From a virus, in the IMG/VR virus record IMGVR_UViG_3300034642_000216, positions 1 through 38,339 of that record: DNA of 38,339 nucleotides. The stretch is one strand, 5' to 3'. Positions 1,360-38,253 of the stretch are shown in pieces. Position numbers and translations under genes: made by a program. Each line of letters opens with the position of its first letter. Positions within the stretch are counted from its first letter, which is position 1. Under the pieces are notes generated by a model, which did no database searches, was not told where the DNA came from, and saw only the letters and a program-made list of their open reading frames with translations.

Positions 1360-2918
1360 AAAGCGTAGTAAGGGTTAAGCACTGAAACTGTTGATCCAGA
1401 TCCGCTATTACCTGTGTTAGATGCTCCAGCAGAAGTTGTGTTTCCGTTATGTCCATCAGTAGCACCTGACCCAGTAGTTGTTGTGTTTCCGTTATTTGCT
1501 CCAGTATTGGATGCTCCAGAAGACGATGTATTAGGAGCTGAGTTACCAGAGTTACCACTGAAACTACCAGAGAAACTATGGTTATGGTTTCCAGAGTTAC
1601 CAGTACCGTGGTTGAAGTTACTATTACCATCGTGTTCGGCTCTTAATCTACCCTGTGTACCTTGAGTAGAATCGTTATTCCAAGCTGAAATGTTATGGCT
1701 GTGTCCACCTGTGTTGTTTGTGTTTCCACTTACACTTCCACTAATACTGTGAGTATGGTTGTTAACTGAGTGACTATGGTTAGGAGTATTGTGTGTATGC
1801 CCATTTAATCCATGATGGTGGTTAGGAGTAGTGTGTGTATGTCCATTCAAACCGTGGGTATGGTTTGGAGTACTGTGGCTGTGGGTGACGTTACTATTAA
1901 TAGTTGTCGATCCACCTGTAGCATCAACAGAATAACTGTTACCAGCACCAATAACGAACCTATCTCTTAAGTCAGGAGTACTGTTTGAACCATTACATAA
2001 GACCCAGCCAGAAGGTATAGCGTTTGCAGCTCCGGACCAGATAAGAATCATACCCGAAACAAATGCCTGGATATTACCTATGGCTGTTCTTACATAGGCA
2101 GTAGTAGCAACTGCATTACCATTATTAGATTGAGGTTTTGTAGTAGCCTGTACGCCATCTACAAGTGTTCCATTAGTTGTTGATAAGCTATCTTTTGCTG
2201 TTTTTAAAGCAGCTACGTCTACACCGTCAACTGTTCCTGATACTGTGATGTTTCCAGTTATGACATGACTTCCAGTAGTAAAAGTTCCAGTGGCAGTAAT
2301 GTTTCCAGAAGAATCTATAGCAAATCTGTCATTGTCGTCTGTAGTATCAACAATTTTAAAACTACCACTATTAACTTTGATAGCAAAATCATCATTATTA
2401 TTTGTATCAACAAAACTTATTTTTGGCGCACCATCTGTGATTGTTATGTTGTTACTTGCGATTGTTCCAGTTGCAGTAATATTTCCTGTTACGTCAATAC
2501 CACTAGCGAAATCATGGTTAGCGTTAGATGTAATAGCACCGTTGTTTGCTACGGATACGCTTGACGAACCATTCGCAATAGTTGTGCTGTCAATCGCAGT
2601 TGTTGAAGCTGCTGTTACTAGACCTTGAGCGTCAACTGTGACGATAGGAATAGCAGAGCTAGAACCATATTGACCAGCAGTTACGCCAGAGTTTTCTAAT
2701 TGTGTGCCTTGTATAGCACCTGAGCCTAATCTTCCAGCAATGGAAGCTGAAGATACGTTAGACATATCTTCTCTTGCTAGTGGTCTACCACCAGCTTGTG
2801 AGCCGTCATGTACGACGGCTGTATCTTTGGTGGTATCTATAGTTACTTCGCCTTCAGCACCAGTAAATGATGCGTGTTGCGATGTAGTACCACGCCTTAA
2901 TTTTAATAATTTTGCCAT
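1338..2918 (-). CDS. Tail collar/fibre protein with Mtd-like N-terminus and His-rich tip
   Basis: This 526-residue structural protein begins directly after the stop of the main tail fibre gene (TAAATG). Residues 1-50 (KLLKLRRGTTSQHASFTGAEGE, then VVHDGSQAGGRPL) resemble the N-terminal domain of phage major-tropism-determinant proteins. The middle is a low-complexity Ser/Thr/Asn shaft. Around residues 285-335 is a phage tail-collar domain (GMILIWSG, PSGWVLCNG, TPDLRDRFVIGAG). It is followed by a run of HxH motifs and a Gly/Asn/Ser-rich C-terminus ending in LNPYYALCYIMK, typical of collar-domain receptor-binding proteins. It is probably a secondary fibre or receptor-binding tip; the host receptor is unknown. 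Confidence 0.85.
   Translation of the reverse strand: MAKLLKLRRGTTSQHASFTGAEGEVTIDTTKDTAVVHDGSQAGGRPLAREDMSNVSSASIAGRLGSGAIQGTQLENSGVTAGQYGSSSAIPIVTVDAQGLVTAASTTAIDSTTIANGSSSVSVANNGAITSNANHDFASGIDVTGNITATGTIASNNITITDGAPKISFVDTNNNDDFAIKVNSGSFKIVDTTDDNDRFAIDSSGNITATGTFTTGSHVITGNITVSGTVDGVDVAALKTAKDSLSTTNGTLVDGVQATTKPQSNNGNAVATTAYVRTAIGNIQAFVSGMILIWSGAANAIPSGWVLCNGSNSTPDLRDRFVIGAGNSYSVDATGGSTTINSNVTHSHSTPNHTHGLNGHTHTTPNHHHGLNGHTHNTPNHSHSVNNHTHSISGSVSGNTNNTGGHSHNISAWNNDSTQGTQGRLRAEHDGNSNFNHGTGNSGNHNHSFSGSFSGNSGNSAPNTSSSGASNTGANNGNTTTTGSGATDGHNGNTTSAGASNTGNSGSGSTVSVLNPYYALCYIMKT
1735..1880 (-). repeat. Imperfect 42-bp tandem repeats encoding HxH-rich units
   Basis: About three copies of a roughly 42-bp unit encode TPNHTHGLNGHTHT-like 14-residue blocks. 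Each block supplies paired HxH motifs. In other phage long-fibre tips, stacked HxH motifs of a trimer hold iron ions octahedrally. Repeat number is likely to vary by slippage. Confidence 0.8.
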
Positions 2919-5672
2919 TTATAAAGCACCGAAATCGAGTTGTAAGTTATTGCCAGCAGCTCCGTCTATAGTTGTTGCTGTCATTAGTCCAGTTATTGTT
3001 GCTCCCGTATTTGTAGTTTCTATACGCTTTGTGTTGTTGAAATATAACGACACTGGTCCATCAGGTTCAAATGTAGCTAGTGCTTCTTGTCCAGTACCTT
3101 TATAAAATCCGCTAGTTCCTGTACCAGAGACTCCAAGTATTAAACCTCCAGTTCCATTATCAACAATTAACGAGTCATTCCCATTATGATAAATTTCTAA
3201 ATCTGAGCTTGTACCAAACTTAGCTTTTACGTTGTCGTTATATACGTTATCGGCAGTAAAAGTGTTTCCAGTTGTAGTTGCAAAGTTACCTGTAGCTGTT
3301 ACACCACCCTGCCATTGTGAACCTGTATAAACTTTTAGTTCGTTAGCAGAAGTGTTGAAGTATAAGTCTCCAGCAGCTAGTGCATTACCACCACCATCTG
3401 TTGATGGGTCAGAGGATGCAATCTGGTACTTATCAGTGAAGTTATTTACGTTTGATATGTTTGAAGCAGTTGTATTAATACTTGCAATATTTGTGGCTGC
3501 TGTGTTTACGTTTGATATAGAACCAGCAACTGTTGTCACGTTCGCATTGTTTCCAGCAACCGTTGTAATATTGGATGCGTTAGAAACCGCAGCATTAATA
3601 TTGGATGCGTTGCTTACAGCAGAGTTTATATTGCTTGCGTTAGCGACAGCAGCATTAATGTTTGTCGCATTGTTATGAACAGCATTAACGTTAGAAATAT
3701 TATTTCCAACACTATTTACGTTTGCGATGTTGGTTGCAACTGTATCTATTTCAGATGTTGTCTCGTTTAAGTCATCAGCAACAGTTTGAATTTTTGCAAT
3801 GTTCGTTGCAGTTGTATTGACGTTTGCAATATTTGCACCAACTGTATTTATTGAGTTATTTCCAGATCCTGTATTAACTGCATTAGTTATAAGACCTAAG
3901 TCTTCTTGGAAAGTAATGTGACCAGAAACACTATTAATAGCTGTGATAGTTGCTTGGTCAGGTGTGATAGGTGAGAAGCCGTCTCCTGAGGAGCCGTCAT
4001 AAACCATCATCACTTGGTTAGAACTACTATCAAACCACAAGTCACCAACTGTTAGTGATGTACCGTCAGCTCTTGTTGTAGGTGCTGAAGTACTTATCTG
4101 ATATAAATCAGCAAAGTTTTCAATATCAGCTAAGTTTTGACCACAGTTAATAACGTTAGTGATATTAGTAGCAACAGTACTAACTTCAGTTGCTTTTGCT
4201 TGTAATCTGTGGAAAGCGTAGGTATGTAATGTACTTGTTGTTTCAAGTATCATTCCAAAGCCTTGAGGTATTACACTTGTTACTCCTGTAATAGTGACAG
4301 TGTTACCAGTTCCTGCACCGTTTGCAATGGTGACGGTTCCGGAGCTGGGGGTAAGATTTGTTGATACAGCTTTAACAGACACCACAGTGCCAGGACCGTT
4401 GTTAACATCCGGATTAGCTGTAGGGAATGAAGTTTCATTTGCTAAAGGTACAAATCCACCAACGTCATCAACAAGGTCAATTATTCTTGCATCAATAGCA
4501 GCTGTAGTAGCTACTTTCGAGTCATTACTAGACCATGTAACTCCACTAGCAATAGTTTCTGAAGAATCCTGTCTAAGAAATAAAGCTTCAGCTTCTGTTT
4601 CTGTGTAGTATCTGTTATCTAATTGTCCAGCATTAAGTTCGGTCTCTGTGTAATATCTATTGTCTAACTGACCAGCATTTAGCTCAGTCTCTGTGTAGTA
4701 TCTGCCGTCAGCAGCTCCACCAGTTATCTCAGCTTCTGTAAAATATAAACTATTTAATTGACCACCGTTTAGTTCGGCCTCTGTGTAGTATCTATTATCT
4801 AAAGTCCCAGTAACTATTTCGTTAGTAGTTAATTTATCTGACTGTAAAAGTGTTTTTATTTCTGCCGCTGTCTGATCAGCAGTAGCTGCCGTCTCTATAC
4901 CAGATAGCTTTGTTTTCTCCGCGTCAGTAAATGCATTGGTATTTGAGTTTGCCTCGTAAAGAGTTTTTATCTCACTACCTGTCTGGTCATCCTTAGCATT
5001 GCTTTCAATAGTATCGAGTTTTGTACCATCAGCTGCTACATCTCTACCATCTACAGTCCCACCTACAACAATGTTTCCACTTGTCTGTACAACTTGTGAA
5101 CCAAAGTCAGGAGAAATCTTTGTACCGGCTATAGCTGCTGAGTTATTAATATCATCGTTAACTATTGACCCATCAACTATGTTTGCTGAATTAACAGTTA
5201 TGCCACTAGGTAATAGACCAGTAGCAATCTTGCTTTGTGCTATAGCAGCACTTCCGCTAATGTCAGCATCAACAATAGTTGCGTCTTTAATTTTTGCTGA
5301 AGTTACAGCCTGATCTTTTATATCAGGAGTTCTTTGTAATTGATGTTGTTCTTGACTTGCAAGCCTAACCATATCGTGGCAAGCGTTTAAGTCCGCAGCT
5401 CTGATAGACGAACCAGCAGCAAATACGGCAGCTGCTGTGTCTAAATCAGTTTCTCTAAATATATGAACATTCCCCGAACCGGCTGCTGCTGCTGCGCCTA
5501 GTGTAACTGTCGTACTAACTACTTTGTACTGACCAGATGATGGGTTTGTATTTGTTGTAAATGTAAGCGGAGTTCCATCAATTTCTACTTTGATGTCACT
5601 CGCCTTTAAGTATTCAATTGAAAACGAGTAGGAGGTACTCCCACCGTTTTTAAATTCTTCAGTTGTCGCCAT
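2919..5672 (-). CDS. Tail fibre protein (T7 gp17-like N-terminus)
   Basis: This 917-residue protein has AAAGGA about 5 nt before its ATG. Its first 150 residues match the T7-type fibre anchor: a short beta-rich head (FSIEYLKASDIKVEIDG) and a DLNACHDMVRLASQEQHQLQ segment that attaches to the tail. The rest is shaft: YYTETE repeats near residues 291-364 and a long N/I/V-rich repeat near 606-745. The C-terminal part (EIYHNGNDSLIVDNGTG and similar) resembles repeats of marine phage fibres. The protein lies directly after the internal core genes, as in T7. It should determine host adsorption. T7 gp17 is much shorter, so the shaft is extended here. Confidence 0.92.
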   Translation of the reverse strand: MATTEEFKNGGSTSYSFSIEYLKASDIKVEIDGTPLTFTTNTNPSSGQYKVVSTTVTLGAAAAAGSGNVHIFRETDLDTAAAVFAAGSSIRAADLNACHDMVRLASQEQHQLQRTPDIKDQAVTSAKIKDATIVDADISGSAAIAQSKIATGLLPSGITVNSANIVDGSIVNDDINNSAAIAGTKISPDFGSQVVQTSGNIVVGGTVDGRDVAADGTKLDTIESNAKDDQTGSEIKTLYEANSNTNAFTDAEKTKLSGIETAATADQTAAEIKTLLQSDKLTTNEIVTGTLDNRYYTEAELNGGQLNSLYFTEAEITGGAADGRYYTETELNAGQLDNRYYTETELNAGQLDNRYYTETEAEALFLRQDSSETIASGVTWSSNDSKVATTAAIDARIIDLVDDVGGFVPLANETSFPTANPDVNNGPGTVVSVKAVSTNLTPSSGTVTIANGAGTGNTVTITGVTSVIPQGFGMILETTSTLHTYAFHRLQAKATEVSTVATNITNVINCGQNLADIENFADLYQISTSAPTTRADGTSLTVGDLWFDSSSNQVMMVYDGSSGDGFSPITPDQATITAINSVSGHITFQEDLGLITNAVNTGSGNNSINTVGANIANVNTTATNIAKIQTVADDLNETTSEIDTVATNIANVNSVGNNISNVNAVHNNATNINAAVANASNINSAVSNASNINAAVSNASNITTVAGNNANVTTVAGSISNVNTAATNIASINTTASNISNVNNFTDKYQIASSDPSTDGGGNALAAGDLYFNTSANELKVYTGSQWQGGVTATGNFATTTGNTFTADNVYNDNVKAKFGTSSDLEIYHNGNDSLIVDNGTGGLILGVSGTGTSGFYKGTGQEALATFEPDGPVSLYFNNTKRIETTNTGATITGLMTATTIDGAAGNNLQLDFGAL
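3438..3855 (-). repeat. Tandem ~30-bp repeats coding an NINxAxxNAS shaft
   Basis: The fibre gene carries about a dozen degenerate 30-bp (10-residue) repeats with units such as VSNASNINAA and AGNNANVTTV. The regular spacing of Asn and Ile/Val suggests a beta-helical or triple-beta-spiral shaft. Copies differ by several bases, so the array is old. Confidence 0.8.
4581..4802 (-). repeat. 45-bp repeats coding LDNRYYTETELNAGQ units
   Basis: Five copies of a YYTE-type unit lie in the fibre gene, two of them nearly identical at the DNA level (LDNRYYTETELNAGQ, 15 residues). YYTE repeats are common in phage fibre shafts. The near-identity of neighbouring copies suggests recent duplication. Confidence 0.85.
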
Positions 5673-9708: not shown

Positions 9709-12225
9709 TTAAGTATTAGGAACGTTTCTATTTTTTGGATCTAAAAAGTTTATTTTATCTTGATAAATTTTTATTTCTTTTTTGTTTTTAATTTTAAAAT
9801 TTCTGTCACGCCAAGCTAAAACATCTTGTCTATACTCTTCATAGTTTTTGTATTTTTTACTGTCCCACTTAGGTCTTGGTTCTTCGACATCTTGATTTAC
9901 TAATTTCTTTGCATCTACAAGTGGTTTTAAATCTTCATGTACTAAGAAATTTAAAGATTCTAGATCTGTTCCACCAGAATATTTGAATACATTTCTGTGA
10001 AAGTCTTTTTGTTCTTCCTTATCTAAATTTTCAAAAATAAGTTCAGATACGGTTTTGCCATTAGTAAAATCAAAATCAACTTTAAATTTAGAATTAAGAT
10101 CTATACCCTCAAAAGACATTTTCAAACCTGATTCGTAGGTCGCCATCTTGAAACCAAAATCAAGATCATCCTTAAATAAATTTAAAACTAATGGATATTC
10201 ATTTAATGCTGTATTGTCTTCTCCTGTAGTAGCCCATGCACGTGCAGAGGTCATACCAGTCACTGAGTAATTAAGTAATAATTTAGATTCACTAGGTAAA
10301 CCATCAAATGCTTTTAATGAATTACTTGTAAGTGGTTCCATACCTAATGCTGCACGTTGTCTGTTAATGACATCGATCGCATTTATGTTGTCGTATAGTT
10401 TTGCAATTCTTTTAGCTTTTTCTGGTATTACTAAAATCCCTAACTTTGCAGATTCATTCTGCATATCAATTAGTTCCTTTTCACTAAAGAACATTCTTTT
10501 AACGTCTAATGCATCAGGAATTTCTAGTATTGCTTTTTTTTCTTTTGCAATTGAATCATGTACTGCACGTGAAGTTTCAGCTATTTCTGTTTTTTTGAGT
10601 AAGTTAGGAGGGCGATAGTTATTATCGTCATCTGTATAAGGATTTTGTGAAGGACCTAATTTTTGTCCTTCCATAAACTTATTTTTTATCTCTTCAAAAG
10701 CCATCTTTCCGGCTAAATGTTTTTGATCCTCAGGAAGTGTTGCATGTAGTTCGATAGCTCTCGCTTTCCATTCGGCTTGAAAATATCTAGTAAGTTGATT
10801 AGCTCCATCGTCATATCCACCAACTGTTACTTGAGCTGCTTTTTTGACCATGGCTTCTAGGTCCTCTAAATAAAATGCACCATCAACAATTACAGTATCG
10901 CCAGCTTTCGCTTTCTTCTGTATTTCAGTATCTAACTGAACCATTATTGGATATTCTTTTAGAGTTTCTGAATTTAACTCTCCATCAAGAAAAGCTTTCT
11001 CTGCATCTAATTTCCTGGATTTTATGATGTTCTTATCATTGCGAAGACTTTCAATCATTGTGGTGAGATACGGGTCAGAGTAACCGTTGTATTTCATCTT
11101 TTGTTTATGAATTAATTCCTGTGCTTGTTTGATAATTGTTAGGTCGTAACCTTTTTCGGTAATCTTGTCAGCAGGAATACTTTTAATAAATGCTTGAGTT
11201 TCGTTGTGAGCATTTAGTTGATGTTCAGTTTGATCCTTGTTGTATTTGTTAACTTCATAATCAATAACAGCATCTTCTAGCTCATTAGCTTCAACTTTAT
11301 ATTGTTTTCTATAAGTAGTTACGTGACCATCATCATGTACGTACTCAGTGTCCAACAATTGGTCAACATGACCATCCTTTAAGACACCACCGTCAACAAG
11401 TGTTTTTAGATGAGATAAGGCTTCTCTTCTAGCTTTACCTCTTATACCTCCATATAAACCAGAATAATTATTAACGTAATTCATTATGCAGTTAACACCA
11501 TCAACACCTGTAAGAGCACAAGACTCAAGAGTTTTTTTGGCTTCAATTATTTCTTCTTCTTTAATTGCTGTTTCTCTTTCTGTATACCAATTGTTATACG
11601 CAATTTCTTCTTTCTTTCTTTGTCCTTCAAACAAATGTTTGTTAACAAGAGCTGGGTTGATATCACCAAGTTCTCTATACAATTGCAATCTTGCTACTGA
11701 TTCAGCTGCTTTGTACTCTTCGTATGAAGTTGCATTCTGCATAGCTGCATTAGTAGAAGGACTGTATTGCTGAAGTTTGCTTTCAACAAATGCAACTACA
11801 ACGCCATGCTGTTCAGCTTTATTTAATTCCTTAAATCCAACAGAGTTCCATATATCTCCACCTGACGCCTCCCATTGAGTACGCATGTCGTTAATAAGAC
11901 GACCTTCTTCGTATAACTCTTTAGTTCCTTCTTCGTATGCTTGCATTGCTGTATCTGGTACTCCATTCTCGAAGAACCACATATAACCCTTTGCAAAATC
12001 TTCTTGTTTTTTCTTCTCTTCTCTTTCTTTTAAAATCCCACTGACAGTCTCGGACATTTCTCCAAGCTTTTTTAAAGAATCACCAGCGAAAGAAGCTGCA
12101 TAATTATAGTTATCAATTTCTTGATCCCAGTAATTAGCCATTCCTTCGTTGATCTGTTTATAACCAGTTACGAGTTCGGGGACATAATCTCGTGAGGTAA
12201 CTGGATCAAATTTTGGTTCTGACAT
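9709..12225 (-). CDS. Internal virion (core) protein, T7 gp15-like
   Basis: This 838-residue protein has little recognisable sequence similarity but holds the gp15 position between gp14-like and gp16-like genes and has a similar length (T7 gp15 is 747). It is charged, largely helical and has no signal or clear membrane segment. I start it at the ATG at 12225 because this forms a TAATG stop-start overlap with the preceding gene; an in-frame ATG three codons earlier is less likely. Its expected role is a ring of the ejected internal core. Confidence 0.82.
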   Translation of the reverse strand: MSEPKFDPVTSRDYVPELVTGYKQINEGMANYWDQEIDNYNYAASFAGDSLKKLGEMSETVSGILKEREEKKKQEDFAKGYMWFFENGVPDTAMQAYEEGTKELYEEGRLINDMRTQWEASGGDIWNSVGFKELNKAEQHGVVVAFVESKLQQYSPSTNAAMQNATSYEEYKAAESVARLQLYRELGDINPALVNKHLFEGQRKKEEIAYNNWYTERETAIKEEEIIEAKKTLESCALTGVDGVNCIMNYVNNYSGLYGGIRGKARREALSHLKTLVDGGVLKDGHVDQLLDTEYVHDDGHVTTYRKQYKVEANELEDAVIDYEVNKYNKDQTEHQLNAHNETQAFIKSIPADKITEKGYDLTIIKQAQELIHKQKMKYNGYSDPYLTTMIESLRNDKNIIKSRKLDAEKAFLDGELNSETLKEYPIMVQLDTEIQKKAKAGDTVIVDGAFYLEDLEAMVKKAAQVTVGGYDDGANQLTRYFQAEWKARAIELHATLPEDQKHLAGKMAFEEIKNKFMEGQKLGPSQNPYTDDDNNYRPPNLLKKTEIAETSRAVHDSIAKEKKAILEIPDALDVKRMFFSEKELIDMQNESAKLGILVIPEKAKRIAKLYDNINAIDVINRQRAALGMEPLTSNSLKAFDGLPSESKLLLNYSVTGMTSARAWATTGEDNTALNEYPLVLNLFKDDLDFGFKMATYESGLKMSFEGIDLNSKFKVDFDFTNGKTVSELIFENLDKEEQKDFHRNVFKYSGGTDLESLNFLVHEDLKPLVDAKKLVNQDVEEPRPKWDSKKYKNYEEYRQDVLAWRDRNFKIKNKKEIKIYQDKINFLDPKNRNVPNT

Positions 12226-12962
12226 TAGCTCCACCCCTGCGGACTATAAATGTAATTACTTCCAGCTCCGTAATCTCCTGCATCAAAATCTCTTTCTAAT
12301 AAGTCACCATCCATTCTGTCATTACTAAATAAATTATTTTCATCACTACCAGCTTCACTAAATGCACCAGCTGCCGCACCAAGGATTCCCTGGAAAATAG
12401 GCAATGATGAGTTCTGCATTGGAGGATAGTTAGGAGCCAATGTAGGTACTGGTACCAATGGTTCTGTTAATTTATTTCTTGCACTTAATGCTTGTCTTCT
12501 TGTGGACTGGATACTTTCTCTATAAGCTTCTTGACCACGGACTAAACCAAACATTCTCTTACCAACTTCTCTTCCATAAGCTGCTGCTACCATAGTTTCG
12601 TAGCGTTGAGCTGATCTACCAGTAATACCGGCAGCTGCTCTCTTACCAACTTTTTCTCTAACCATTTTCATAAATGAACCCATATTCTGATTCAAAGCTT
12701 TTGAACGGGTTGCATTTAGATTTGCTCTAGCTTTTTCGTAAGCACGATTTGCTGCTAAATCATTTTCATTAATATCGATGGCACGTTTAGTTGTCTTAGC
12801 CTGATATAAGGTTCTATCTTGTAGCCACTTTCTACGGCGAATCTCCATCTGACGTTCCCATGCCCGTCTTTTGGCTGTATTCTGTGCCTTGATTGCTTGG
12901 CTCTGACCTATTCCGCTAAGTATCTTTGACGCTCCACCGAGGGCTGCACTAGGACTGCACAC
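12225..12962 (-). CDS. Internal virion protein, T7 gp14-like
   Basis: This 245-residue protein begins with a GTG (MCSPSAALGGASKILSGIGQ). Such an MC-x-P start and glycine-rich helix is typical of gp14-like internal proteins, which enter the outer membrane during ejection. It is followed by a strongly basic, helical region (residues 30-150). Its start lies 14 nt inside the end of the gp13-like gene, and its stop overlaps the next start as TAATG. Confidence 0.82.
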   Translation of the reverse strand: MCSPSAALGGASKILSGIGQSQAIKAQNTAKRRAWERQMEIRRRKWLQDRTLYQAKTTKRAIDINENDLAANRAYEKARANLNATRSKALNQNMGSFMKMVREKVGKRAAAGITGRSAQRYETMVAAAYGREVGKRMFGLVRGQEAYRESIQSTRRQALSARNKLTEPLVPVPTLAPNYPPMQNSSLPIFQGILGAAAGAFSEAGSDENNLFSNDRMDGDLLERDFDAGDYGAGSNYIYSPQGWS

Positions 12963-18308: not shown

Positions 18309-18356
18309 CCTAAGCCCCGTTCCATGCTTAGGAGTCATGCGTCCCCGAAGGGATGA
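18309..18356 (-). promoter_or_regulatory. Two tandem RNA hairpins upstream of the capsid leader ORF
   Basis: The first hairpin (18342-18353) is UCCC-UUCG-GGGA, a stable UUCG tetraloop, extended by TCAT/ATGA arms. The second (18309-18332) is CCTAAGC/GCTTAGG around a 10-nt loop. Neither has a U-tract, so these are probably not terminators. Processing or stability elements are more likely. Confidence 0.6.
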
Positions 18357-18368
18357 ACGGACGTAGCG

Positions 18369-20094: not shown

Positions 20095-20888
20095 TAGAAA
20101 TCTAAATCTGATCTGTCTAATTTTGCTATGACATCATCCCTGTATGCAGGGTCAGCCTCATAACGTGGGTCTCCAATAGCAGCTACTAATTCAGCTTGAC
20201 TACGGAAAGTATCTCCTCCAGATCTAGCTGGCTTACCTTGTAAGGTTGTGCCTTCAAATCCATTGGCATCGGAGTATTGAGATTTCAAACCAGCTATTGC
20301 CAACTTGATCATCTCTACATTTCCTGTTTGTACAACACCATCGAATGCTTCGATCTGTGATCTACCTAAGTTTTGACCAGCCCATGAAACTATCTCGTTG
20401 TATTGTTTCTCTCCACCTACATAGTTTTGTACTTGGTTAACTTGTGCGTCAGTCATCTCTACACTTTGAGGCTGTTGAGCTGGAGCATTTTTTAATGACT
20501 CGACATACGCATTAACTAAATCCTTACTACTCATAGATGAAAACTTCTCAATAGTTTCATCAGACAAAGTATTGTCATTGGCATAGTACTCAGCAGATGC
20601 ATCAGATATTAATGCCATCGCTGGATTGTCTGTAGCTTCTGGTTCTTCTACTTCTTGGGTTTCGTCCCCTTGCCCTTCTTCTTGTACGGCATCGTTATCT
20701 CCTAGTTTCTTTTGTAATTCGAGGTAAGCATTTTCTAAGTCTTTTGTATCTTTATACTTACCAGCTAGAAGCCCTTCATGTTCTGCTTCTAATTGCTCAC
20801 CAACCTTCAGAGAGTCCTGTTCCTCTGGGGTAAGGACTTCTGTTTCTGGTTGGGCATCTGTAATGGTAATTGTTTGTTCGTCTGCCAT
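20094..20888 (-). CDS. Scaffolding protein (T7 gp9-like)
   Basis: This 264-residue, highly acidic and helical protein lies between portal and capsid genes. The first half is Glu/Gln-rich (TPEEQDSLKVGEQLEAEHEG, then GDETQEVEEPEATD). The second half contains FRSQAELVAAIGDPRYEADP and PAYRDDVIAKLDRSD, a typical C-terminal signature of podoviral scaffolds that contact the capsid. It ends in LDF. It would be released during capsid maturation. Start at the ATG at 20888, directly adjoining the portal stop. Confidence 0.92.
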   Translation of the reverse strand: MADEQTITITDAQPETEVLTPEEQDSLKVGEQLEAEHEGLLAGKYKDTKDLENAYLELQKKLGDNDAVQEEGQGDETQEVEEPEATDNPAMALISDASAEYYANDNTLSDETIEKFSSMSSKDLVNAYVESLKNAPAQQPQSVEMTDAQVNQVQNYVGGEKQYNEIVSWAGQNLGRSQIEAFDGVVQTGNVEMIKLAIAGLKSQYSDANGFEGTTLQGKPARSGGDTFRSQAELVAAIGDPRYEADPAYRDDVIAKLDRSDLDF

Positions 20889-30108: not shown

Positions 30109-30683
30109 TAGAAATCATCATCCTCGACAGAGCTAGGTGCCAGGTCTGGACTGACGTTTGGGTCTTCTGCTTTGAATCCAGCAGTCTTACCAAACAATTC
30201 AGCTACGCCATCTTCGTCTAAGTCACCGGTGTCTACACCAGCTCCTGCCTGTATGGATACAACTTGTATTCCAGATAGCTTGAGTGATGTGCCATAGGTT
30301 ACGCCGTCTCTAAGTATGTATGGCTTCTGATGAAATCCAATCTTAACTTTTGATCCTTCATAAACTGGTGTATCTAGATCTTTTATGAGAACGCCTTCTG
30401 TATCTACAACAGGTGGTTTCTTATCTTCGGCCCATGAAAACTTAACTATGTACTTTCCTTTCTCTACCTCTTCCCATGGTTCGGGACGGCATGTGGCTCT
30501 CTTTGGATTCTTTAACTTTGACTCTGCCCATTTAAGACAGTCAGTTCTTTCAGTCTCAAGTGCGTCAACTACTTCCTGACCGACAACAGCCTTCAAGGAG
30601 TAACCAAACTTACTTGGTTTTAATATCGCCTGATAGCCCTCAAGGGTTACAGGATCTTTCGTGATGTGTATTGTTCTTGGCAT
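30108..30683 (-). CDS. Single-stranded DNA-binding protein (T7 gp2.5-like)
   Basis: This 191-residue protein occupies the gp2.5 position after RNA polymerase. The OB-fold-like core (about residues 70-150) is followed by an acidic tail ending SSVEDDDF. A C-terminal acidic tail with final Phe is the feature by which gp2.5 contacts polymerase and primase-helicase. The start overlaps the RNA polymerase stop as TAATG. Confidence 0.92.
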   Translation of the reverse strand: MPRTIHITKDPVTLEGYQAILKPSKFGYSLKAVVGQEVVDALETERTDCLKWAESKLKNPKRATCRPEPWEEVEKGKYIVKFSWAEDKKPPVVDTEGVLIKDLDTPVYEGSKVKIGFHQKPYILRDGVTYGTSLKLSGIQVVSIQAGAGVDTGDLDEDGVAELFGKTAGFKAEDPNVSPDLAPSSVEDDDF

Positions 30684-33025
30684 TAACAGAAAAAATAAGT
30701 GGAATCAATTACTTCGGACGGTTCAAGGTCTCCAATAATCGGTGGTTCAGACTCAGCTCCAATAGCTTGGGCAAAGTCACGTAGGTAGTCATGCTCTGCG
30801 AATAGATGCATGTATGTATTTCTTACAAGAGTGGAGAGATGGGTCATATCAGTTGCCCTACATAGAACGGAATCATGTATCAAAGCAATTGGTGCATGAA
30901 ACTGTATGGCACTGAGTGCTAATAGACTTCCATCCATGGAATGAATCAGGTTTGGTGCTGTGGCGTTCCTGTGATGTCGTATGTCAACACCATCTTCACC
31001 GTCAGCTACCTTAATTTGTACTCGACCCAGTAACTTCAGCTCTATCGTTTTACGATTAGATTTCATCAATCGCTGGGTAACTTCAAATCCTGATGGGGTG
31101 GTCCATGATATCTCTTCAGCTCCTTTTCTTATGGCGTTTGCAACTTCAGTTTCTATCCATCGCATTGCCCTCATAGGCCCTGGCAGCACTAGCTCCATGG
31201 CTTCTCGGACAGCTTTGACCATCTGGGTCAGCTCGTCCTTTTCGACCTCGATGCCGACATCCTTAAAAGAATCTCTTATGTACTGCCTGTTGCTAAAAGG
31301 TTTAGCATTGTAGGGTATTGTCATAATTGTTCTTTTCACCCGACTCCTATCCCAGTGAGGGCGTAGTCTTTCGGGTATCTTATGTCTGCATTTATCAGCT
31401 ATAACCTGATAGGCATCTTGAGGTTTATCACTAGGTAAAACATTTACTAAAGATGCTGCTGATTTATCTCTGCACAATCCAGCAAGTATCTGTATTCCTG
31501 AGCACGTGGCGTCAGTTGCTACACATAGACCTGTGGTCGTCCTTGATTTGGCAATGACTACAGCGTAGTATTCCTCGCATGCAGCTAAAAATTGCCATGG
31601 CTCGTCAGCAGTTTCCCAGTCTCCAATTGAATTTATTGGATCAGTTGCTACCCTAATAATTCTTTGTATATTCTCCTCTTCTTCTACCCAAGCCAGTCGA
31701 TCACAAATGGTAGCTTTATCCAGACCAAACGTAGTGGCAACTTGGAATGCTAACCAGTGCTTACCTTCTTCAGTTATGGGAGCTTCGTCAGCAAATCTAA
31801 CTAGGCTCTTCCCGAAGTCAGTGTCCTGACAAGTTAAGAATGAGGGTATGGGATATACTCGTCCCCGATAATCGAACGACATGGGCACGTAGTAGTCAAT
31901 TCCTTTGAACTGCTTGACACAGTTCATAGTCATTCTTGTTCTACAACTAGCTCGAAATTCATTTTTATTTTTATTATGAAAAACGGCTTTTTTCTTTCGC
32001 CATTCTTTTCGTGCTTGCTCATTCGTATCTATATCAAACGGCTTCGGAGGTTCCGGATGATGGATGATTGGTCGGAACTTTCCAACCTCAATTCCTCTTT
32101 CCTCTAGTACCTCTGCAACCTCTACAGTGAAGTCATTTAATCTATATTTGACTTTCTGTATCAGGTTTAAAAATTCATAGATTTTTCTCCCCTGTATAAC
32201 GTAGGGTACCCCCCTCCGAACCATCTCATGGCAATTGATTAGCTCGTTTAAATAGTAACCGCCATCTGCAAATTCATGCCAATCTCTAGGAGGAATCAAC
32301 ATCGGTAAAGATTGCGGAGAAAATAACTCAGTTATTCGTTTAATTTCCTCTGCATGTATTAAGAATGATTCGGTTGGAACTATTATCCAAGTTTGTCTTT
32401 TGCCTTCTATTTTTTTACTTTTATCGAACCAGCCGGAGGACCTACAGAAACAATCAAGAAACCAAGTTCCGATCTGTATCTTATGGTTTTGTCCCCATGC
32501 TTTCCATGGTTCGATTTCACTCTTGTTCATAAGAGTGGTCATTGATTTACGTTTGTAGTCAGTGCCCTTGGCTTGATGCCAGTAATTCTTTTTAAGAACG
32601 GCGAACAATCCTGGCGCAACCCTTTCGTAGTAACGCATCTGGGACTCTGCCTCCAATGCCGTACCAACAGCTAGAGCTATGTTGGTCAGCTGATCACTCT
32701 TTTTCTTGGGTGAGAATACTTTGTCAAATGTAAGCTTGGCTGTGATTGCAGCCTGTGATTCAGTATCGATGTCAAATATGAAAGGGAGTAGCTCGATAAG
32801 ATGTCCAGCTCCTCCCGTTGCAATTTTCTTTCTTTTTTCCTTTTTTTCATTTATTTCTTTAATAAAATATGGCAGCAGTGAGTCAATTGATGACGAGCCG
32901 AAAACTGTGGCTGATGCATAATCCTTCTCTATTAACTTTTTAGTATCAGATCGAATCTTTTCTAGTCCACCTCGTATTTGCTTTCGCTCGAACTCCTGCT
33001 GTCTCTTCAGATCAGCTGCTTGCAT
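30683..33025 (-). CDS. Single-subunit T7-type RNA polymerase
   Basis: This 780-residue enzyme transcribes middle and late phage genes. Motif A is VATDATCSGIQILAGL (catalytic Asp), motif B is VKRTIMTIPYNAKPFSNR (K, R and Y as in T7; Gly after Tyr is Asn here), and motif C is ALIHDSVLCR. FDYRGRVYPIPSF matches the T7 palm region. It is about 100 residues shorter than T7 RNAP, mainly in the N-terminal domain that binds promoter DNA and T7 lysozyme. It starts with ATG at 33025 without an evident Shine-Dalgarno. The leader holds a hairpin terminator and a TCACACACAT motif. Confidence 0.97.
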   Translation of the reverse strand: MQAADLKRQQEFERKQIRGGLEKIRSDTKKLIEKDYASATVFGSSSIDSLLPYFIKEINEKKEKRKKIATGGAGHLIELLPFIFDIDTESQAAITAKLTFDKVFSPKKKSDQLTNIALAVGTALEAESQMRYYERVAPGLFAVLKKNYWHQAKGTDYKRKSMTTLMNKSEIEPWKAWGQNHKIQIGTWFLDCFCRSSGWFDKSKKIEGKRQTWIIVPTESFLIHAEEIKRITELFSPQSLPMLIPPRDWHEFADGGYYLNELINCHEMVRRGVPYVIQGRKIYEFLNLIQKVKYRLNDFTVEVAEVLEERGIEVGKFRPIIHHPEPPKPFDIDTNEQARKEWRKKKAVFHNKNKNEFRASCRTRMTMNCVKQFKGIDYYVPMSFDYRGRVYPIPSFLTCQDTDFGKSLVRFADEAPITEEGKHWLAFQVATTFGLDKATICDRLAWVEEEENIQRIIRVATDPINSIGDWETADEPWQFLAACEEYYAVVIAKSRTTTGLCVATDATCSGIQILAGLCRDKSAASLVNVLPSDKPQDAYQVIADKCRHKIPERLRPHWDRSRVKRTIMTIPYNAKPFSNRQYIRDSFKDVGIEVEKDELTQMVKAVREAMELVLPGPMRAMRWIETEVANAIRKGAEEISWTTPSGFEVTQRLMKSNRKTIELKLLGRVQIKVADGEDGVDIRHHRNATAPNLIHSMDGSLLALSAIQFHAPIALIHDSVLCRATDMTHLSTLVRNTYMHLFAEHDYLRDFAQAIGAESEPPIIGDLEPSEVIDSTYFFC

Positions 33026-33151: not shown

Positions 33152-33197
33152 CGTACGCTCCTTAGACGTGCGCGTCTACCAATTCCGCCACGTCCGC
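33152..33197 (-). other. Putative attP: 5' half of a tRNA-Leu gene
   Basis: The minus strand reads like tRNA-Leu from base 1 into the anticodon arm: acceptor strand GCGGACG, D-arm with GGCGGAATTGGTAGACGC, then an anticodon-like loop CTAAGGA (read as AAG). No T-arm follows, so it is a tRNA fragment, not a gene. It overlaps the end of the integrase gene. P-SSP7 is reported to have a similar tRNA-Leu-identical stretch downstream of its integrase gene, taken as its attachment site. Confidence 0.85.
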
Positions 33198-34250
33198 AAA
33201 GGGTTTTCGAGCATCGGCGGATGTGAAAACCTCATTATTATACGACGTGGAAGGCTGAAATTGGGGGTCTGCCGACACATACGCTGATGTGTTGTGAACC
33301 CTTGCCATTGCATATTTATCTTCCTCGGTTAAAACTTTTTGCATCTTTTGCAGCTCGCCTGTGTGGTAAGCCTTTGCGAGATTAACCAAGTCTCTGCTCT
33401 TCTGTTTGCCCAACGCTCTAGCATAACGTCTCGTAACTTCAACGGAACTGTGGCACATGATGTCACATACTCTGTCGATTGGGGTATCGATCATTAACAA
33501 CGCACTACAGAATGTGTGGCGCAGCTGCTTCAATGGATACTGTTTGTCTTGAGGTAATGCGTAAGAACGATTCTTGTTAAACCAATAAGCAAGTTGATCT
33601 ACAGTTTCCCAGTCGTCTCCAAAAACTAGAGCATCTTTATGCTTGTTTCTGATACGTGGCTCAAGTACTTCCTGTAGCTTGGGCATTATTGGTATAGGTA
33701 CTATCTTGGAAGCTTTGTTTTGAAAACTTCTACCTATGTATAGCCAGCCGTGCTCGAGATCGACGTCCCTGGCTTTGATCTTAAGGATTTCACCACGTCT
33801 AGCACCTGACCATGCGAGAGCCAATATGATATCGGCCAGATCATCTCTGCCCATAAACTCATAAGATCTTGCATACTTAACCATTGCATCTACCTCGTCA
33901 AAGGTATAAACAATCGGTGTTTGCTGCGGTTCATGCTGACGTGCTCCTACAAAGCATGTAGGGAACTCCGGAATTAAGTGACGTTGAGCACAAAACAATA
34001 AGGCTGTCTTCACAGCGGATATCGACTTGTTGATTGTGGAAGGTGAACGGCCATTATGCTTCATCGTATTGATGAGCTTGTCCATTGCCATCCAGTCAAT
34101 CATGCTGACGGCACAATTACCCCAGACCTTCTGCGGCCATGCGAGGTTATTGATGATAGTTTGACGCGACCTTGAGTGAACCCATTGAGGTCTACTCTTA
34201 AGGGCGTAGTCAATACACTGATTCAGTGTTTTAAACTGTTTGTTCGCCAT
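33162..34250 (-). CDS. int: Tyrosine-family site-specific integrase
   Basis: This 362-residue recombinase has a SAM-like core-binding N-domain (LAWPQKVWGN to AVKTALLF) and the catalytic set: Arg in LAWSGARRGEILK, Lys in the beta-hairpin FQNKASKIVPI, KQLRHTF (Lys replacing the first His of box II), His in MCHSSVEVT and the nucleophile Tyr in RRYAR. The last nine residues, VAELVDAHV, are the translated tRNA-Leu attachment site. It overlaps the MarR-like gene by 20 nt. It implies capacity for integration at a tRNA-Leu gene, though cyanopodoviruses with int have mostly been seen as lytic. Confidence 0.95.
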   Translation of the reverse strand: MANKQFKTLNQCIDYALKSRPQWVHSRSRQTIINNLAWPQKVWGNCAVSMIDWMAMDKLINTMKHNGRSPSTINKSISAVKTALLFCAQRHLIPEFPTCFVGARQHEPQQTPIVYTFDEVDAMVKYARSYEFMGRDDLADIILALAWSGARRGEILKIKARDVDLEHGWLYIGRSFQNKASKIVPIPIMPKLQEVLEPRIRNKHKDALVFGDDWETVDQLAYWFNKNRSYALPQDKQYPLKQLRHTFCSALLMIDTPIDRVCDIMCHSSVEVTRRYARALGKQKSRDLVNLAKAYHTGELQKMQKVLTEEDKYAMARVHNTSAYVSADPQFQPSTSYNNEVFTSADARKPFADVAELVDAHV

Positions 34251-35853: not shown

Positions 35854-36056
35854 AGCTGCCCTTGTCTCCTATCTTTAATGGGAAACAATTCTGGCTCAGG
35901 TTTAAAAGAGTCGATGATGATCTCCCACCTTAACGCCTTGTCCTTGAGAGATCCCAGTTCCTGGAGTACTTCTTGGAAAGTCGAAGACTGATTAAGATCC
36001 GGATTACTTGCCCATGCAATTGCATAGACTTCCGAAATAAACTTTGACTGATTCAT
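35850..36056 (-). CDS. Early hypothetical protein (68 residues)
   Basis: This is the first gene of the early operon: MNQSKFISEVYAIAWASNPD, then a helical segment FQEVLQELGSLKDKALRWEI. It starts 13 bases after the ACTGA-loop hairpin and has no Shine-Dalgarno, so its translation start may use the upstream RNA structure. No family is recognised. It ends in ATGA overlap with the 54-residue gene. Confidence 0.8.
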   Translation of the reverse strand: MNQSKFISEVYAIAWASNPDLNQSSTFQEVLQELGSLKDKALRWEIIIDSFKPEPELFPIKDRRQGQL

Positions 36057-36069
36057 AAATTGTCAATAA

Positions 36070-36088
36070 ACCCAGCTCAGTGCTGGGC
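36070..36088 (-). promoter_or_regulatory. 7-bp hairpin with ACTGA loop
   Basis: GCCCAGC pairs with GCTGGGT (one G-U) around ACTGA. It starts exactly three bases (ATT) after the minihelix. The stem differs from the hairpin at 37647-37665 but the loop is identical, so loop and shape appear selected rather than copied. TTTATT follows, so weak termination is possible. Confidence 0.65.
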
Positions 36089-36091
36089 AAT

Positions 36092-36131
36092 CGGACGGGA
36101 TGGAGTCGAACCATCTATAACCCTGCGTCCA
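36092..36131 (-). ncRNA. T-arm minihelix element, copy before the early operon
   Basis: On the minus strand TGGACGC (acceptor-like 5' strand), a 9-nt connector, T-stem GATGG, T-loop TTCGACT, CCATC and then CCGTCCG form a tRNA-like acceptor/T-arm helix. Six of seven acceptor pairs form (one G-U), and the innermost is a mismatch. The T-loop keeps all consensus positions. There is no D arm, anticodon arm or encoded CCA. It lies between the tandem terminators and the first early gene. Confidence 0.6.
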
Positions 36132-36152
36132 TGTCTGCGTCCCTGTGCGTCC
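36124..36152 (-). repeat. Three GGACGCA direct repeats
   Basis: GGACGCA occurs three times with spacings of 12 and 10 bp, about one helical turn. Such phasing suits a protein-binding operator near the early promoter. The copy closest to the gene also forms the acceptor strand of the minihelix. Confidence 0.55.
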
Positions 36153-36175
36153 TTGAGATTCCAGGTTCTGACTAG

Positions 36176-36219
36176 AAAAAAATAAAAAAAAATAAAAAAC
36201 GCCCTTAAAATGTGGGCGT
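36176..36219 (-). terminator. Second tandem intrinsic terminator
   Basis: The stem ACGCCC/GGGCGT with a 9-nt loop is followed on the minus strand by a long U-rich run (TTTTTTATTTTTTTTTATTTTTTT). It isolates the early operon from the accessory module. Confidence 0.9.
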
Positions 36220-36252
36220 CCATGTGTGTGAAAGCGGCTTAAGCGAAAATTT

Positions 36253-36290
36253 TAGAAAAATAAAAAATCCGCTCAAAATTTGGGCGGATT
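36253..36290 (-). terminator. First tandem intrinsic terminator, after the methyltransferase gene
   Basis: AATCCGC pairs with GCGGATT around an 11-nt loop that can pair further (CAAA/TTTG). TTTTTTATTTTT follows on the minus strand. It begins 10 nt after the methyltransferase stop. Confidence 0.92.
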
Positions 36291-36300
36291 CTGTAAAAAA

Positions 36301-36888
36301 TTAGGGGCGAATTGCGCCCCATTGCTCGGCCATCGCGTCGGCGATTCCTTGATAAGTTTTACTGCGTAATTTCCAGCGGTCCGGTGACGGCGGAAGATAG
36401 TGCAAACGCTGGCGGATTTTATTAGGTAAACCGGAAACATCTATAAATTTAGTGCCTTTTAATTTCGGTAAACCTTTTAACCATAAGCCGGTGCGCTTTT
36501 GTTCAGCGTGGCCGAACTGGTAAGGCTGTATATATTGCGACGGCTTGCCCATACTTGAGCGGCTGGACAATGCGCCGACAGGATTCTCAACCGCTATGCG
36601 CTGGCACTTATTGTTAAATATGCGCTCAACAAATTTAATGGCGGCTTGCTGTTTACCAGTGCGGACCAGCTCGGCCCAGTTTTTAGCATTTGATACTGTC
36701 AAATATGTACAGGGCGGGTGAGCAATTATAAGGTCATAATCGTCATCGATAATATCGAATATGTCGCCCTGATAGTGTGGGCCGGCTTTGTCAGTCGGCA
36801 AAAGGTCACAACTTATAGCGTCGTGACCACGTTTTATAAAAGCATCGCGGACAGTGCCGGAATACTCGCAAGCAATTAATACTTTCAT
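36301..36888 (-). CDS. DNA cytosine methyltransferase-like protein
   Basis: This 195-residue protein belongs to the short phage family resembling C5-methyltransferases: KVLIACEYSGTVRDAF (SAM-binding motif I), ISCDLLPTD (motif II), AHPPCTYLT with the Pro-Cys pair (P59-C60, motif IV) and AVENPVGALSS (motif VI, ENP rather than ENV). It is much shorter than active C5 enzymes and lacks an obvious large target-recognition domain, so catalysis on DNA is uncertain. G+C is higher than in the core genes and codon choice differs (many GCC, GGC), suggesting recent gain. It ends in a terminator. Confidence 0.85.
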   Translation of the reverse strand: MKVLIACEYSGTVRDAFIKRGHDAISCDLLPTDKAGPHYQGDIFDIIDDDYDLIIAHPPCTYLTVSNAKNWAELVRTGKQQAAIKFVERIFNNKCQRIAVENPVGALSSRSSMGKPSQYIQPYQFGHAEQKRTGLWLKGLPKLKGTKFIDVSGLPNKIRQRLHYLPPSPDRWKLRSKTYQGIADAMAEQWGAIRP

Positions 36889-36902
36889 AGTGCAAAGGCT
36901 GT

Positions 36903-37634
36903 CTAAGTGGATTGATTAAGTAATTGATTTAATTTCTTTTTATTATTTCCATGAGCTACAAACGCTATCGCGTAGTCTCTCGGCTTAGAACATAAAAGGC
37001 AAGTTTCGCACTTTGTAGGCTGGCAAGTCTGGGCCGGACATACAACAACGCGGCGACCCTTAGGCGTTTTAATTGGCTTATCTACTTTGTAATAAGTTTT
37101 TTTATCTTTTAAAGAAGAATAAGCAATTAAATTGGGATTGTCCGAGCTGATAATTGAGCAAGCATTTAAGCTTTTATCAATTGCGGCGTCGGCTTCGCTT
37201 AATGATTCTGTGCTGGCGTTGATTGTGAAACCCTGAGCCGTTGCGGTTTTAATTGCTTCGGTGTTGTGGGTGTTCAATATGTGATGACTATATGTCCAGC
37301 CTTTGCGCCCTTTGTTAGCGTCTATTAATTGTCTTAATAGATCTAATCTAATTAAGCCGTCAAAGTGTGGGATATCGCCGGACGTATTCATTCGCCAAGG
37401 CTGGCCGGCTGGCAATGCTTTTATATTGCGAGCTAATCCGGCCCAGTCGGTTAAATTCTTGCCGGCGGTTCCTTTGTCTACCTTTGCCCAGATCCACGAT
37501 TGCGGACCTGTCTTCGCGTAGCAATTGCCGTTGATATGTGGGCATGTCTTCGGACAGCTGGCCGATTCAGTAATTGTGACCGGTAGCCGTCCCACTTTGC
37601 TGTTGGATGATTTCTTAATAAATAAGACTTTCAT
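36903..37634 (-). CDS. Cysteine-rich phage protein (gp88-like, possible Fe-S enzyme)
   Basis: This 243-residue protein has ESASCPKTCPHINGNCYAKT (C27, C31, C38), RMNTSGDIPHFDGL, WTYSHH and a C-terminal cluster CPAQTCQPTKCETCLLCSKP with six cysteines. Such proteins are found in many phages (gp88-like). The CxxxC...CYA pattern and the TIM-barrel-like spacing recall radical-SAM-like phage enzymes, but the standard CxxxCxxC is not present. It probably binds iron-sulphur or zinc. The ATG lies 12 bases after an ACTGA-loop hairpin and has no Shine-Dalgarno. Confidence 0.75.
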   Translation of the reverse strand: MKVLFIKKSSNSKVGRLPVTITESASCPKTCPHINGNCYAKTGPQSWIWAKVDKGTAGKNLTDWAGLARNIKALPAGQPWRMNTSGDIPHFDGLIRLDLLRQLIDANKGRKGWTYSHHILNTHNTEAIKTATAQGFTINASTESLSEADAAIDKSLNACSIISSDNPNLIAYSSLKDKKTYYKVDKPIKTPKGRRVVVCPAQTCQPTKCETCLLCSKPRDYAIAFVAHGNNKKKLNQLLNQST

Positions 37635-37646
37635 TTTTTAGTGTTG

Positions 37647-37665
37647 GCTACTCTCAGTGAGTAGC
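37647..37665 (-). promoter_or_regulatory. 7-bp hairpin with ACTGA loop
   Basis: GCTACTC and GAGTAGC form seven Watson-Crick pairs around ACTGA. It starts exactly three bases (ATT) after the minihelix, the same spacing as at 36070-36088. The gp88-like gene starts 12 nt later. Confidence 0.7.
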
Positions 37666-37668
37666 AAT

Positions 37669-37711
37669 TGCTAAGGGCGGAATCGAACCGCCCATAAAAA
37701 ACCATTTAGCG
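37669..37711 (-). ncRNA. T-arm minihelix element, copy before the gp88-like gene
   Basis: The minus strand has CGCTAAA, a 12-nt T-rich connector, T-stem GGCGG, T-loop TTCGATT, CCGCC and CTTAGCA. Five of seven acceptor pairs form (GCTAA/TTAGC). The stop codon of the 64-residue gene lies in the acceptor 5' strand. It looks like a tRNA without D and anticodon arms. No CCA is encoded. Confidence 0.65.
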
Positions 37712-37900
37712 TGTTAATAGTGAGCTCTCAGGGTCCAGCACGATTGTGAAAGTGTGGCCGAGTCTCTCAAGTGCTCGCATATCCCAGCGAGTAAGCGTCT
37801 TTTTTTTAGTGAGAGTTAGGATTGCGTCTCTTATGTCATCGTCCGCAATGTATGTGCGCTCTTGTCCGAAGTCGCGGCGTGTATAAACTTTGATTTCCAT
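37706..37900 (-). CDS. Hypothetical protein (64 residues)
   Basis: The protein reads EIKVYTRRDFGQERTYIADD, then a helix DIRDAILTLTKKKTLTRWDM and a strand FTIVLDPESS. It begins in a TAATG overlap with the KTSC-like gene and its stop codon lies in the following minihelix. No family is recognised. Its G+C and codon use are like the rest of the accessory module. Confidence 0.7.
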   Translation of the reverse strand: MEIKVYTRRDFGQERTYIADDDIRDAILTLTKKKTLTRWDMRALERLGHTFTIVLDPESSLLTR

Positions 37901-38163
37901 TAGTTTTTAACCCCTAATAAAGAGTGACTAAATAAAGCAAAGCCGGTGCGCTTACAAGTAACGCCCTTAAGTCTTTTAATCTTGTTGACCCAAAAGCCAA
38001 GAGATACCGAACCATTAATAAATAAATTAATAATTGCAAGACTTGGGACGTTGCTGTATGTGTACTCTCTGCCGCCGACATAGCGAACAATTGCAACACG
38101 TCTAAAAGGACACGCGGCGATAGTCTCAACGCATGTTGATGTTCTGTCTTCTATGTAATACAT
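37900..38163 (-). CDS. KTSC-like domain protein
   Basis: Starting at the ATG at 38163, the 87-residue protein contains RRVAIVRYVGGREYTYSNVP, then SVSLGFWVNKIKR. This matches the KTSC domain layout (strand, YxYxNVP, S-x-G-x-x-x-N-x-I). KTSC domains occur in phages and in some RNA-related proteins; function is unclear. An upstream in-frame TTG at 38265 is rejected because that region forms the minihelix and hairpin. It has no Shine-Dalgarno. Confidence 0.7.
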   Translation of the reverse strand: MYYIEDRTSTCVETIAACPFRRVAIVRYVGGREYTYSNVPSLAIINLFINGSVSLGFWVNKIKRLKGVTCKRTGFALFSHSLLGVKN

Positions 38164-38185
38164 AAAATTAAGTAATAAGTGGAAA

Positions 38186-38205
38186 TACTGTCTAAGTGGA
38201 CAGTA
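38186..38205 (-). promoter_or_regulatory. 7-bp hairpin after the third minihelix
   Basis: TACTGTC and GACAGTA pair perfectly around a CACTTA loop. It starts one base after the minihelix. The loop differs from ACTGA but keeps ACT and the final A. The KTSC-like gene starts 22 nt later. The 13-mer TCCACTTAGACAG in this hairpin recurs at 36899-36911. Confidence 0.6.
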
Positions 38206-38206
38206 A

Positions 38207-38253
38207 TGCAATTTATAGAATCGAACTATATAAAAGGGCCGGCCCCTATTGCA
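38207..38253 (-). ncRNA. T-arm minihelix element, copy before the KTSC-like gene
   Basis: TGCAATA and AATTGCA pair at six of seven positions, with the innermost mismatched. T-stem TATAG/CTATA encloses TTCGATT. The 16-nt connector contains the self-complementary GGGCCGGCCC. The stems have completely different sequences from the other copies while the T-loop stays the same, which is what compensatory change would give. Confidence 0.6.

Follow-up and report, generated by a model that had tools for sequence, protein, structure and literature searches.

The virus record analysed here, IMGVR_UViG_3300034642_000216 (the window; 38,339 bases), represents a T7-like cyanopodovirus and a relative of P-SSP7. 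Three short elements lie upstream of its RNA polymerase gene, on the minus strand of the early region. Each is made of an acceptor stem, a connector containing GG and a T-arm (together, a minihelix), followed by a strong trailer hairpin and then an ATG. The element is real and its family is larger than first described; by sequence comparison, the acceptor stem, the GG-containing connector and the T-arm covary as a single RNA structure. We regard the elements, with a probability of about 0.66, as cis-acting processing signals derived from transfer RNA (tRNA), at which early polycistronic RNA is cut into separate mRNAs.

A sequence-only reading of the window had placed minus-strand minihelices at 36092-36131, 37669-37711 and 38207-38253. 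All three are present, and they are the only perfect T-arms (5 base pairs (bp) plus a TTCRANN loop) in the 38 kb; their parts are listed in Table 1. The T-loops read TTCGATT, TTCGATT and TTCGACT above unrelated 5-bp stems, in line with the constant loop and differing stems reported by that reading. It was also right that CCA is not encoded behind the discriminator and that D and anticodon arms are lacking: ARAGORN finds 0 canonical tRNAs, and the Rfam tRNA model is absent among the matches up to E=10 in the region. The acceptor had been described as 7 paired nucleotides (nt) with a mismatch at the innermost position. The mismatch stands, this pair being open in the window copies and in 25 of the 32 rows of the R2 alignment (see below), whereas the paired acceptor amounts to 5-6 bp. 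The connector measures 8-16 nt. Three features had been overlooked: the trailer hairpin, which starts 0-3 nt past the 3' acceptor strand; the near-fixed distance from the end of the element to the next ATG (35 nt for copy 3, 33 nt for copy 2, 43 nt for copy 1); and the stop codon of the upstream gene embedded in copy 2. Energy folding predicts minihelix and hairpin for all three copies, although the z-score of copy 3 against shuffled sequences is unexceptional on energy alone.

Covariation and conserved geometry

Relatives were gathered via the adjacent proteins, the RNA polymerase, a DNA pattern and isolate genomes. One set, 1.05 Mb in all, was picked by RNA polymerase and not by motif. In this set the stem at GTTCRAYTC is fully paired at 32 of 60 sites on the coding strand and at none of 13 on the opposite strand, the expectation being 1.9%.

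Two covariance models were built with no seed from the window: R1, from six seeds, describes the minihelix only, and R2, from eight seeds, the minihelix with its hairpin. Both find the element across cyanopodoviruses and recover copies 2 and 3 of the window. Being too divergent and having a longer connector, copy 1 is missed by both; its support comes from an orthologue in L003 (L numbers designate compared sequences) and from a homologous downstream gene. R2 yields 43 hits up to E=1, on the coding strand in every case. It has 21 hits at the polymerase-selected loci, every one at 1.1-4.9 kb on the upstream side of the polymerase gene, and no hit occurs in the 501 kb downstream of it.

In the R2 alignment 90.3% of cells pair, and there are 194 double-sided changes compared with 55.6 after shuffling (standard deviation 6.8). 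The covariation score is 0.648, against 0.153 for shuffled alignments and at most 0.101 when the partners are slid. Acceptor, T-stem and trailer hairpin each contribute. Because this alignment was fitted to the structure, which favours covariation, a second test was made with no pairing imposed. The pattern GTTCRAYTC-N-TTGC-N-CAMTGAG retrieves 81 distinct sites in a complete scan of IMG/VR. The T-stem is perfectly paired at 71 of them, 58 have a hairpin of 6 bp or more without interruption, and at 68 the TTGC motif is 31-35 nt away from the first ATG past the hairpin. Some of the 81 look like chance matches, with unpaired stems or a geometry unlike that of the element (L352, L354, L371, L376, L405), and a near-identical pair (L353 and L383) has a paired T-arm without trailer hairpin or nearby ATG; all of these were left out of the stop-codon count given below.

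The start of the connector is enriched for GG (42 of 57 elements, against 23 in shuffles with a maximum of 34 in 500), as in a D-loop, which makes an elbow contact between this GG and the T-loop plausible. The discriminator is A in 45 of the 57. The trailer hairpin is almost always accompanied by the T-arm; it has a conserved AMYGA loop and is separated from the ATG by about 11 nt, in which no Shine-Dalgarno sequence is obvious.

No Rfam family is matched by the element. A search of the window and eight relatives at gathering scores returns only the glutamine-II riboswitch, located elsewhere, and neither ARAGORN nor Rfam finds a transfer-messenger RNA (tmRNA) in the window. Membership of a known RNA family was rejected, permissive Rfam searches adding unrelated weak hits only. 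The elements thus add a covarying RNA family outside Rfam and the tRNA finders. A literature search of journals open without subscription found no earlier report of phage minihelices, phage tRNA punctuation or phage mRNA cut by RNase Z.

Occurrence, tRNA-Asp slots and the embedded stop

The element occurs in P-SSP7, P-SSP2, P-SSP3, P-SSP10, NATL2A-133 and P-GSP1, and probably also in S-RIP2, S-SBP1 and S-CBP3; dozens of contigs, marine and freshwater, contain it too. S-CBP2 and S-CBP42 carry it with variant T-loops. It was not found in the genomes of T7, Syn5, SS120-1, S-CBP1, S-CBP4, S-TIP28 and S-TIP37. Among 20 Prochlorococcus and Synechococcus genomes, a small sample, the best matches reach E=0.04 (R1) and 0.097 (R2), and a host-encoded family was rejected on these empty-handed searches.

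Gene context is shared as well, the elements standing on the coding strand where early genes meet. The 87-residue gene after copy 1 has homologues in P-SSP7, L154 and P-SSP10, likewise behind elements; the DUF7227 gene after copy 2 is a homologue of PSSP7_001, itself behind an element; and the 68-residue gene after copy 3 has homologues in L003, L008, L135, L151, L157 and L390, each behind an element.

The same kind of slot is filled by an intact tRNA-Asp(GUC) in 15 or more related phages (L166, L181, L208, L351, L362, L365, L368, L370, L372, L374, L379, L381, L391, L394 and others). The detector had called minihelices in L368, L370 and L372; ARAGORN identifies them as intact tRNAs, and they were counted as tRNA slots. 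The trailer of minihelix slots, TT with hairpin and ATG, recurs in most tRNA slots, and homologous genes lie downstream in both states (for example, E=5e-13 between the minihelix locus L389 and the tRNA locus L181, and E=4e-9 between L075 and L166, again minihelix and tRNA). The tRNA-Asp thus stands before homologous genes with the same trailer; descent of the minihelix from tRNA-Asp was not traced at the level of sequence. What minihelix and tRNA share is the acceptor/T-arm stack offered to tRNA-processing enzymes, and this is the property relevant at the gene junctions. The presence of a tRNA in the same place in relatives suggests that host tRNA-trimming enzymes cut the viral message there.

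The two slot states differ with respect to the upstream gene. Of 55 minihelices, 21 hold its stop codon within the 5' acceptor strand; among 17 tRNA slots the number is 0 (Fisher p=0.0016, indicative only since the elements are related and not fully independent). The embedded stop is mostly in one register, AGC[TGA] or GC[TAG]. In copy 2 it is the TAA (37708-37706) of the 64-residue gene.

Two observations concern variation within the family. Among L351-L404, every slot tRNA called by ARAGORN is tRNA-Asp(GUC). The T-loop may also read TCGATT, TGCAATC, ATCGAAT or TTCGTAA, yet trailer hairpin and ATG are unchanged; such sites lie in S-CBP2 (L226, 1041-1102 and 1277-1345), S-CBP42 (L227, 3273-3329) and L224 (4234-4261, minus strand).

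Proposed processing model and competing explanations

A working tRNA requires excision by RNase P and a 3' endonuclease. Every step of the following model beyond folding is inferred. The elements would do the job of the RNase III sites of coliphage T7 by way of the host tRNA-maturation machinery. Host RNase Z, the tRNA 3' endonuclease, would bind the folded acceptor/T-arm stack and cut past the discriminator (for copy 3, at 36092/36091). That would place the minihelix at the 3' terminus of the upstream mRNA, which could then receive CCA and would resist 3' exonucleases. The mRNA downstream would start 2-3 nt before the trailer hairpin, which would shield its 5' end from RNase E; a 5'-terminal hairpin has this protective effect in Escherichia coli. 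Cyanobacteria possess RNase Z, RNase P and RNase E (PMC10989914), and host RNase E is raised during P-SSP7 infection (PMC9692554), so that structured mRNA ends would be selected.

The sequence-only reading had already favoured intergenic RNA-processing marks of tRNA-like form, and covariation, the fixed junction geometry and the tRNA-Asp slots make this the best-supported proposal. Its RNase P component fits poorly. A 5' cut would strip the upstream stop from those 21 of 55 minihelices that embed it; RNase P therefore probably cuts the minihelix form weakly if at all, and the simplest reading is that the 3' cut alone is needed.

Known systems provide partial precedents. Plant mitochondrial t-elements are also tRNA-derived structures beside genes, possible processing marks with no encoded CCA, and are cleaved by RNase P and RNase Z, CCA-tailed and not aminoacylated (PMC11658184). 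Both there and in mitochondrial tRNA punctuation, as here, a tRNA-like secondary structure lies by protein genes on the coding strand. The phage elements differ from t-elements in belonging to DNA phages, in their size and composition (about 40 nt; acceptor, T-arm and GG connector), in that their cleavage is predicted, in the trailer hairpin and start codon attached to them, and in often holding the upstream stop. In mitochondrial tRNA punctuation, intergenic tRNAs mark the cuts in polycistronic RNA, and some phage slots do hold an intact tRNA-Asp; most, however, have no anticodon arm and therefore cannot decode. The RNase III sites of T7 early mRNA are likewise RNA structures between early cistrons of a T7-like phage, but the expected enzyme is different (RNase Z or P, not RNase III), as is the fold, an acceptor/T-arm with a 5-7 bp hairpin in place of a long imperfect duplex, and none of the elements was found in T7. 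The tRNA-like domain of tmRNA shares the acceptor, the T-arm, a D-loop-like GG segment and the lack of an anticodon arm, whereas the phage element is far shorter, has no tag reading frame and occurs several times per genome between protein genes. Finally, M3 RNA and C4 antisense RNA (PMC11143913), compared by description only, are non-tRNA phage RNAs cut by a tRNA-processing enzyme, RNase P; they are single RNAs and not a repeated junction family.

If cleavage occurs as proposed, tRNA punctuation of a kind otherwise known from organelles would serve abundant phages of the ocean, the model phage P-SSP7 among them, to separate early mRNAs by means of host tRNA-maturation enzymes. This would explain stable early mRNAs despite the phage-driven rise of host RNase E. 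It would also provide a natural minimal substrate of RNase Z and RNase P, and would mean that a tRNA gene and an anticodon-less minihelix are interchangeable in one genomic slot. A bolder version, which we put forward tentatively and do not expect to hold in full, is that a minimal tRNA-like structure ends mRNAs in a widespread phage RNA family, with an RNase Z-generated end, added CCA and the stop codon in the acceptor. Terminating ribosomes would then compete with folding and cutting, and thus couple translation to the release of the next mRNA.

Several points weigh against the processing model. Many cyanopodoviruses (Syn5, SS120-1, S-CBP1, S-CBP4, S-TIP28, S-TIP37) show no element, which is thus not essential to this life style. 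The acceptor often has 5-6 pairs and the elbow is without a full D arm, and cyanobacterial RNase Z might reject such a substrate. About 140-170 nt with terminator-like hairpins separate copy 3 from the gene before it; this copy may therefore act on a leader and not between two cistrons, and a transcript may start nearby. The near-fixed distance from hairpin to ATG could equally serve translation.

This last point leads to an unlikely explanation, an uncut translational element in which the minihelix at the stop and the hairpin before the ATG govern termination, re-initiation or 30S recruitment in place of a Shine-Dalgarno sequence. The stop codons inside the acceptor strand, the usual 31-35 nt to the ATG and the position of the AMYGA-loop hairpin all suit such a function. 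It leaves unexplained, however, why tRNA-Asp occupies the same slot before homologous genes and why conservation peaks in the T-loop; moreover, a hairpin alone would suffice, yet the T-arm nearly always accompanies it.

Two further explanations appear improbable, and to a similar degree. A protein-binding site for transcription control (antitermination or early/middle attenuation), with an incidental tRNA-like shape, would account for the conserved pentaloop, the free stem sequence and the repeats in the early region, features that recall nut/boxB by resemblance only. Against this, the geometry is tied to the start codon and not to promoters or terminators, a whole tRNA can replace the minihelix, and the trailer hairpins are unflagged by the terminator scan. 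Terminator or promoter elements as such were rejected, since the scan passes over the trailer hairpins and finds no excess over shuffled sequences. The elements might instead be freed to act in trans as small tRNA mimics that tie up CCA-adding enzymes, EF-Tu, synthetases or defence nucleases directed at tRNA, a role compatible with the tRNA-like fold, the common discriminator A and the lack of an anticodon. But every copy is bound to a gene junction and start codon, stems are wholly different within one genome, and stop codons of genes lie inside the structure.

Integration into tRNA genes, the alternative raised in the sequence-only reading, would make the elements scars, or else decaying functionless tRNA pseudogenes; despite the integrase encoded in the genome and the intact tRNA-Asp in the same slots of relatives, this is very improbable. 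The T-arm and 3' acceptor of copies 2 and 3 match no tRNA 3' end in 18 host genomes, some of them partial single-cell assemblies, at up to 3 mismatches (copy 1 was not searched), and several different copies coexist in one genome. Tycheposon-like remnants hold the 3' part of a tRNA only, whereas here a paired 5' acceptor strand is present; neutral decay would not produce the covariation seen in the T-stem and in both acceptor strands. Chance T-arm-like sequences, for which Markov controls give 1.7 detector hits per 2.03 Mb, are already refuted by the comparative tests, namely the strand contrast, the T-stem pairing found without imposing it and the cross-genome models.

Window coordinates and accessory observations

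All major genes of the window are carried by the minus strand. Besides the polymerase (Table 1), genes for an integrase (33162-34250), a primase-helicase and a head-tail connector are present.

Table 1. Minihelix elements of the window and adjoining features (z, fold z-score against shuffled sequences; E-values of R1 and R2 are rough)
Feature	Position	Strand	Details
Copy 1 minihelix	38207..38253	-	orthologue L003:4352-4399, R1 E=0.0016; minimum free energy fold z=-3.08
Copy 1 acceptor	5' strand 38247-38253; 3' strand 38207-38213	-	discriminator T 38206
Copy 1 connector	38231-38246	-	holds a small hairpin of its own
Copy 1 T-arm	stem 38226-38230/38214-38218	-	loop TTCGATT 38219-38225
Copy 1 trailer hairpin	38186..38205	-	TACTGTCCACTTAGACAGTA, read as TACTGTC-CACTTA-GACAGTA; right behind discriminator
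Gene after copy 1, 87 aa	37900..38163	-	ATG 38163-38161
Gene upstream of copy 2, 64 aa	37706..37900	-	
Copy 2 minihelix	37670..37710	-	R1 E=4.7e-6; R2 E=4.8e-13; z=-3.75
Copy 2 acceptor	37705-37710 with 37670-37675	-	GCTAA(A) with (C)TTAGC; discriminator A 37669
Copy 2 connector and T-arm	loop 37681-37687	-	connector TGGTTTTTTATG; T-stem GGCGG/CCGCC; loop TTCGATT
Copy 2 trailer hairpin	37647..37665	-	GCTACTC-ACTGA-GAGTAGC, 7 bp, loop ACTGA; then ATG at 37634
Gene after copy 2, DUF7227 protein (Pfam PF23872)	36903..37634	-	
Copy 3 minihelix	36092..36130	-	R1 E=1.6e-4; R2 E=3.7e-7; z=-1.35
Copy 3 acceptor	36124-36130 with 36093-36098	-	GGACG(CA) with CCGTCC; discriminator G 36092
Copy 3 connector and T-arm	loop 36104-36110	-	connector GGGTTATA; T-stem GATGG/CCATC; loop TTCGACT
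Copy 3 trailer hairpin	36070..36088	-	GCCCAGC-ACTGA-GCTGGGT
Gene after copy 3, 68 aa	35850..36056	-	ATG at 36056
RNA polymerase gene	30683-33025	-	69.5% identity to Prochlorococcus phage P-SSP7 polymerase

Just upstream of copy 3, two to three repeats of its 5' acceptor sequence, GGACGCA, occur (window about 36124-36165, minus strand), and such repeats also precede the orthologues in L008, L011, L147 and L157. In L147 the upstream repeats read GGACACA and match a changed 3' strand. Alternative 5' strands or slippage are possible origins of these repeats. Farther upstream, between a 195-residue gene and copy 3 (about 36196-36320, minus strand), three consecutive terminator-like hairpins occur, one flagged by the terminator scan and the other two read by eye.

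The glutamine-II riboswitch lies at 18309-18362 on the minus strand, between psbA and the capsid gene, and exceeds the Rfam gathering score; its P-SSP7 counterpart is at 20522-20575. On other cyanophage contigs a minihelix is found about 65 nt upstream of psbA (L045:1276-1315 and L057:4828-4867); the next gene is confirmed as photosystem II D1 in L057 and is of similar size in L045.

An intermediate form, with paired acceptor, T-arm and a hairpin resembling an anticodon arm but no D arm, occurs in L133, L147, L157 and L011 (at 8605). The stem of this hairpin varies while its loop, ACTCCGAA, is constant.

Arrays of about 20 acceptor/T-arm minihelices (TGGCACG..AGTGCCA) occupy the minus strand of L089 (IMG/VR 2529292852, 180 kb) at 369-3600 and 10871-12852. 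Many have a hairpin behind them, and there are also forms with a D arm and no anticodon arm. The L089 DNA resembles plasmids of Ligilactobacillus salivarius, and its arrays represent a separate and possibly larger family.

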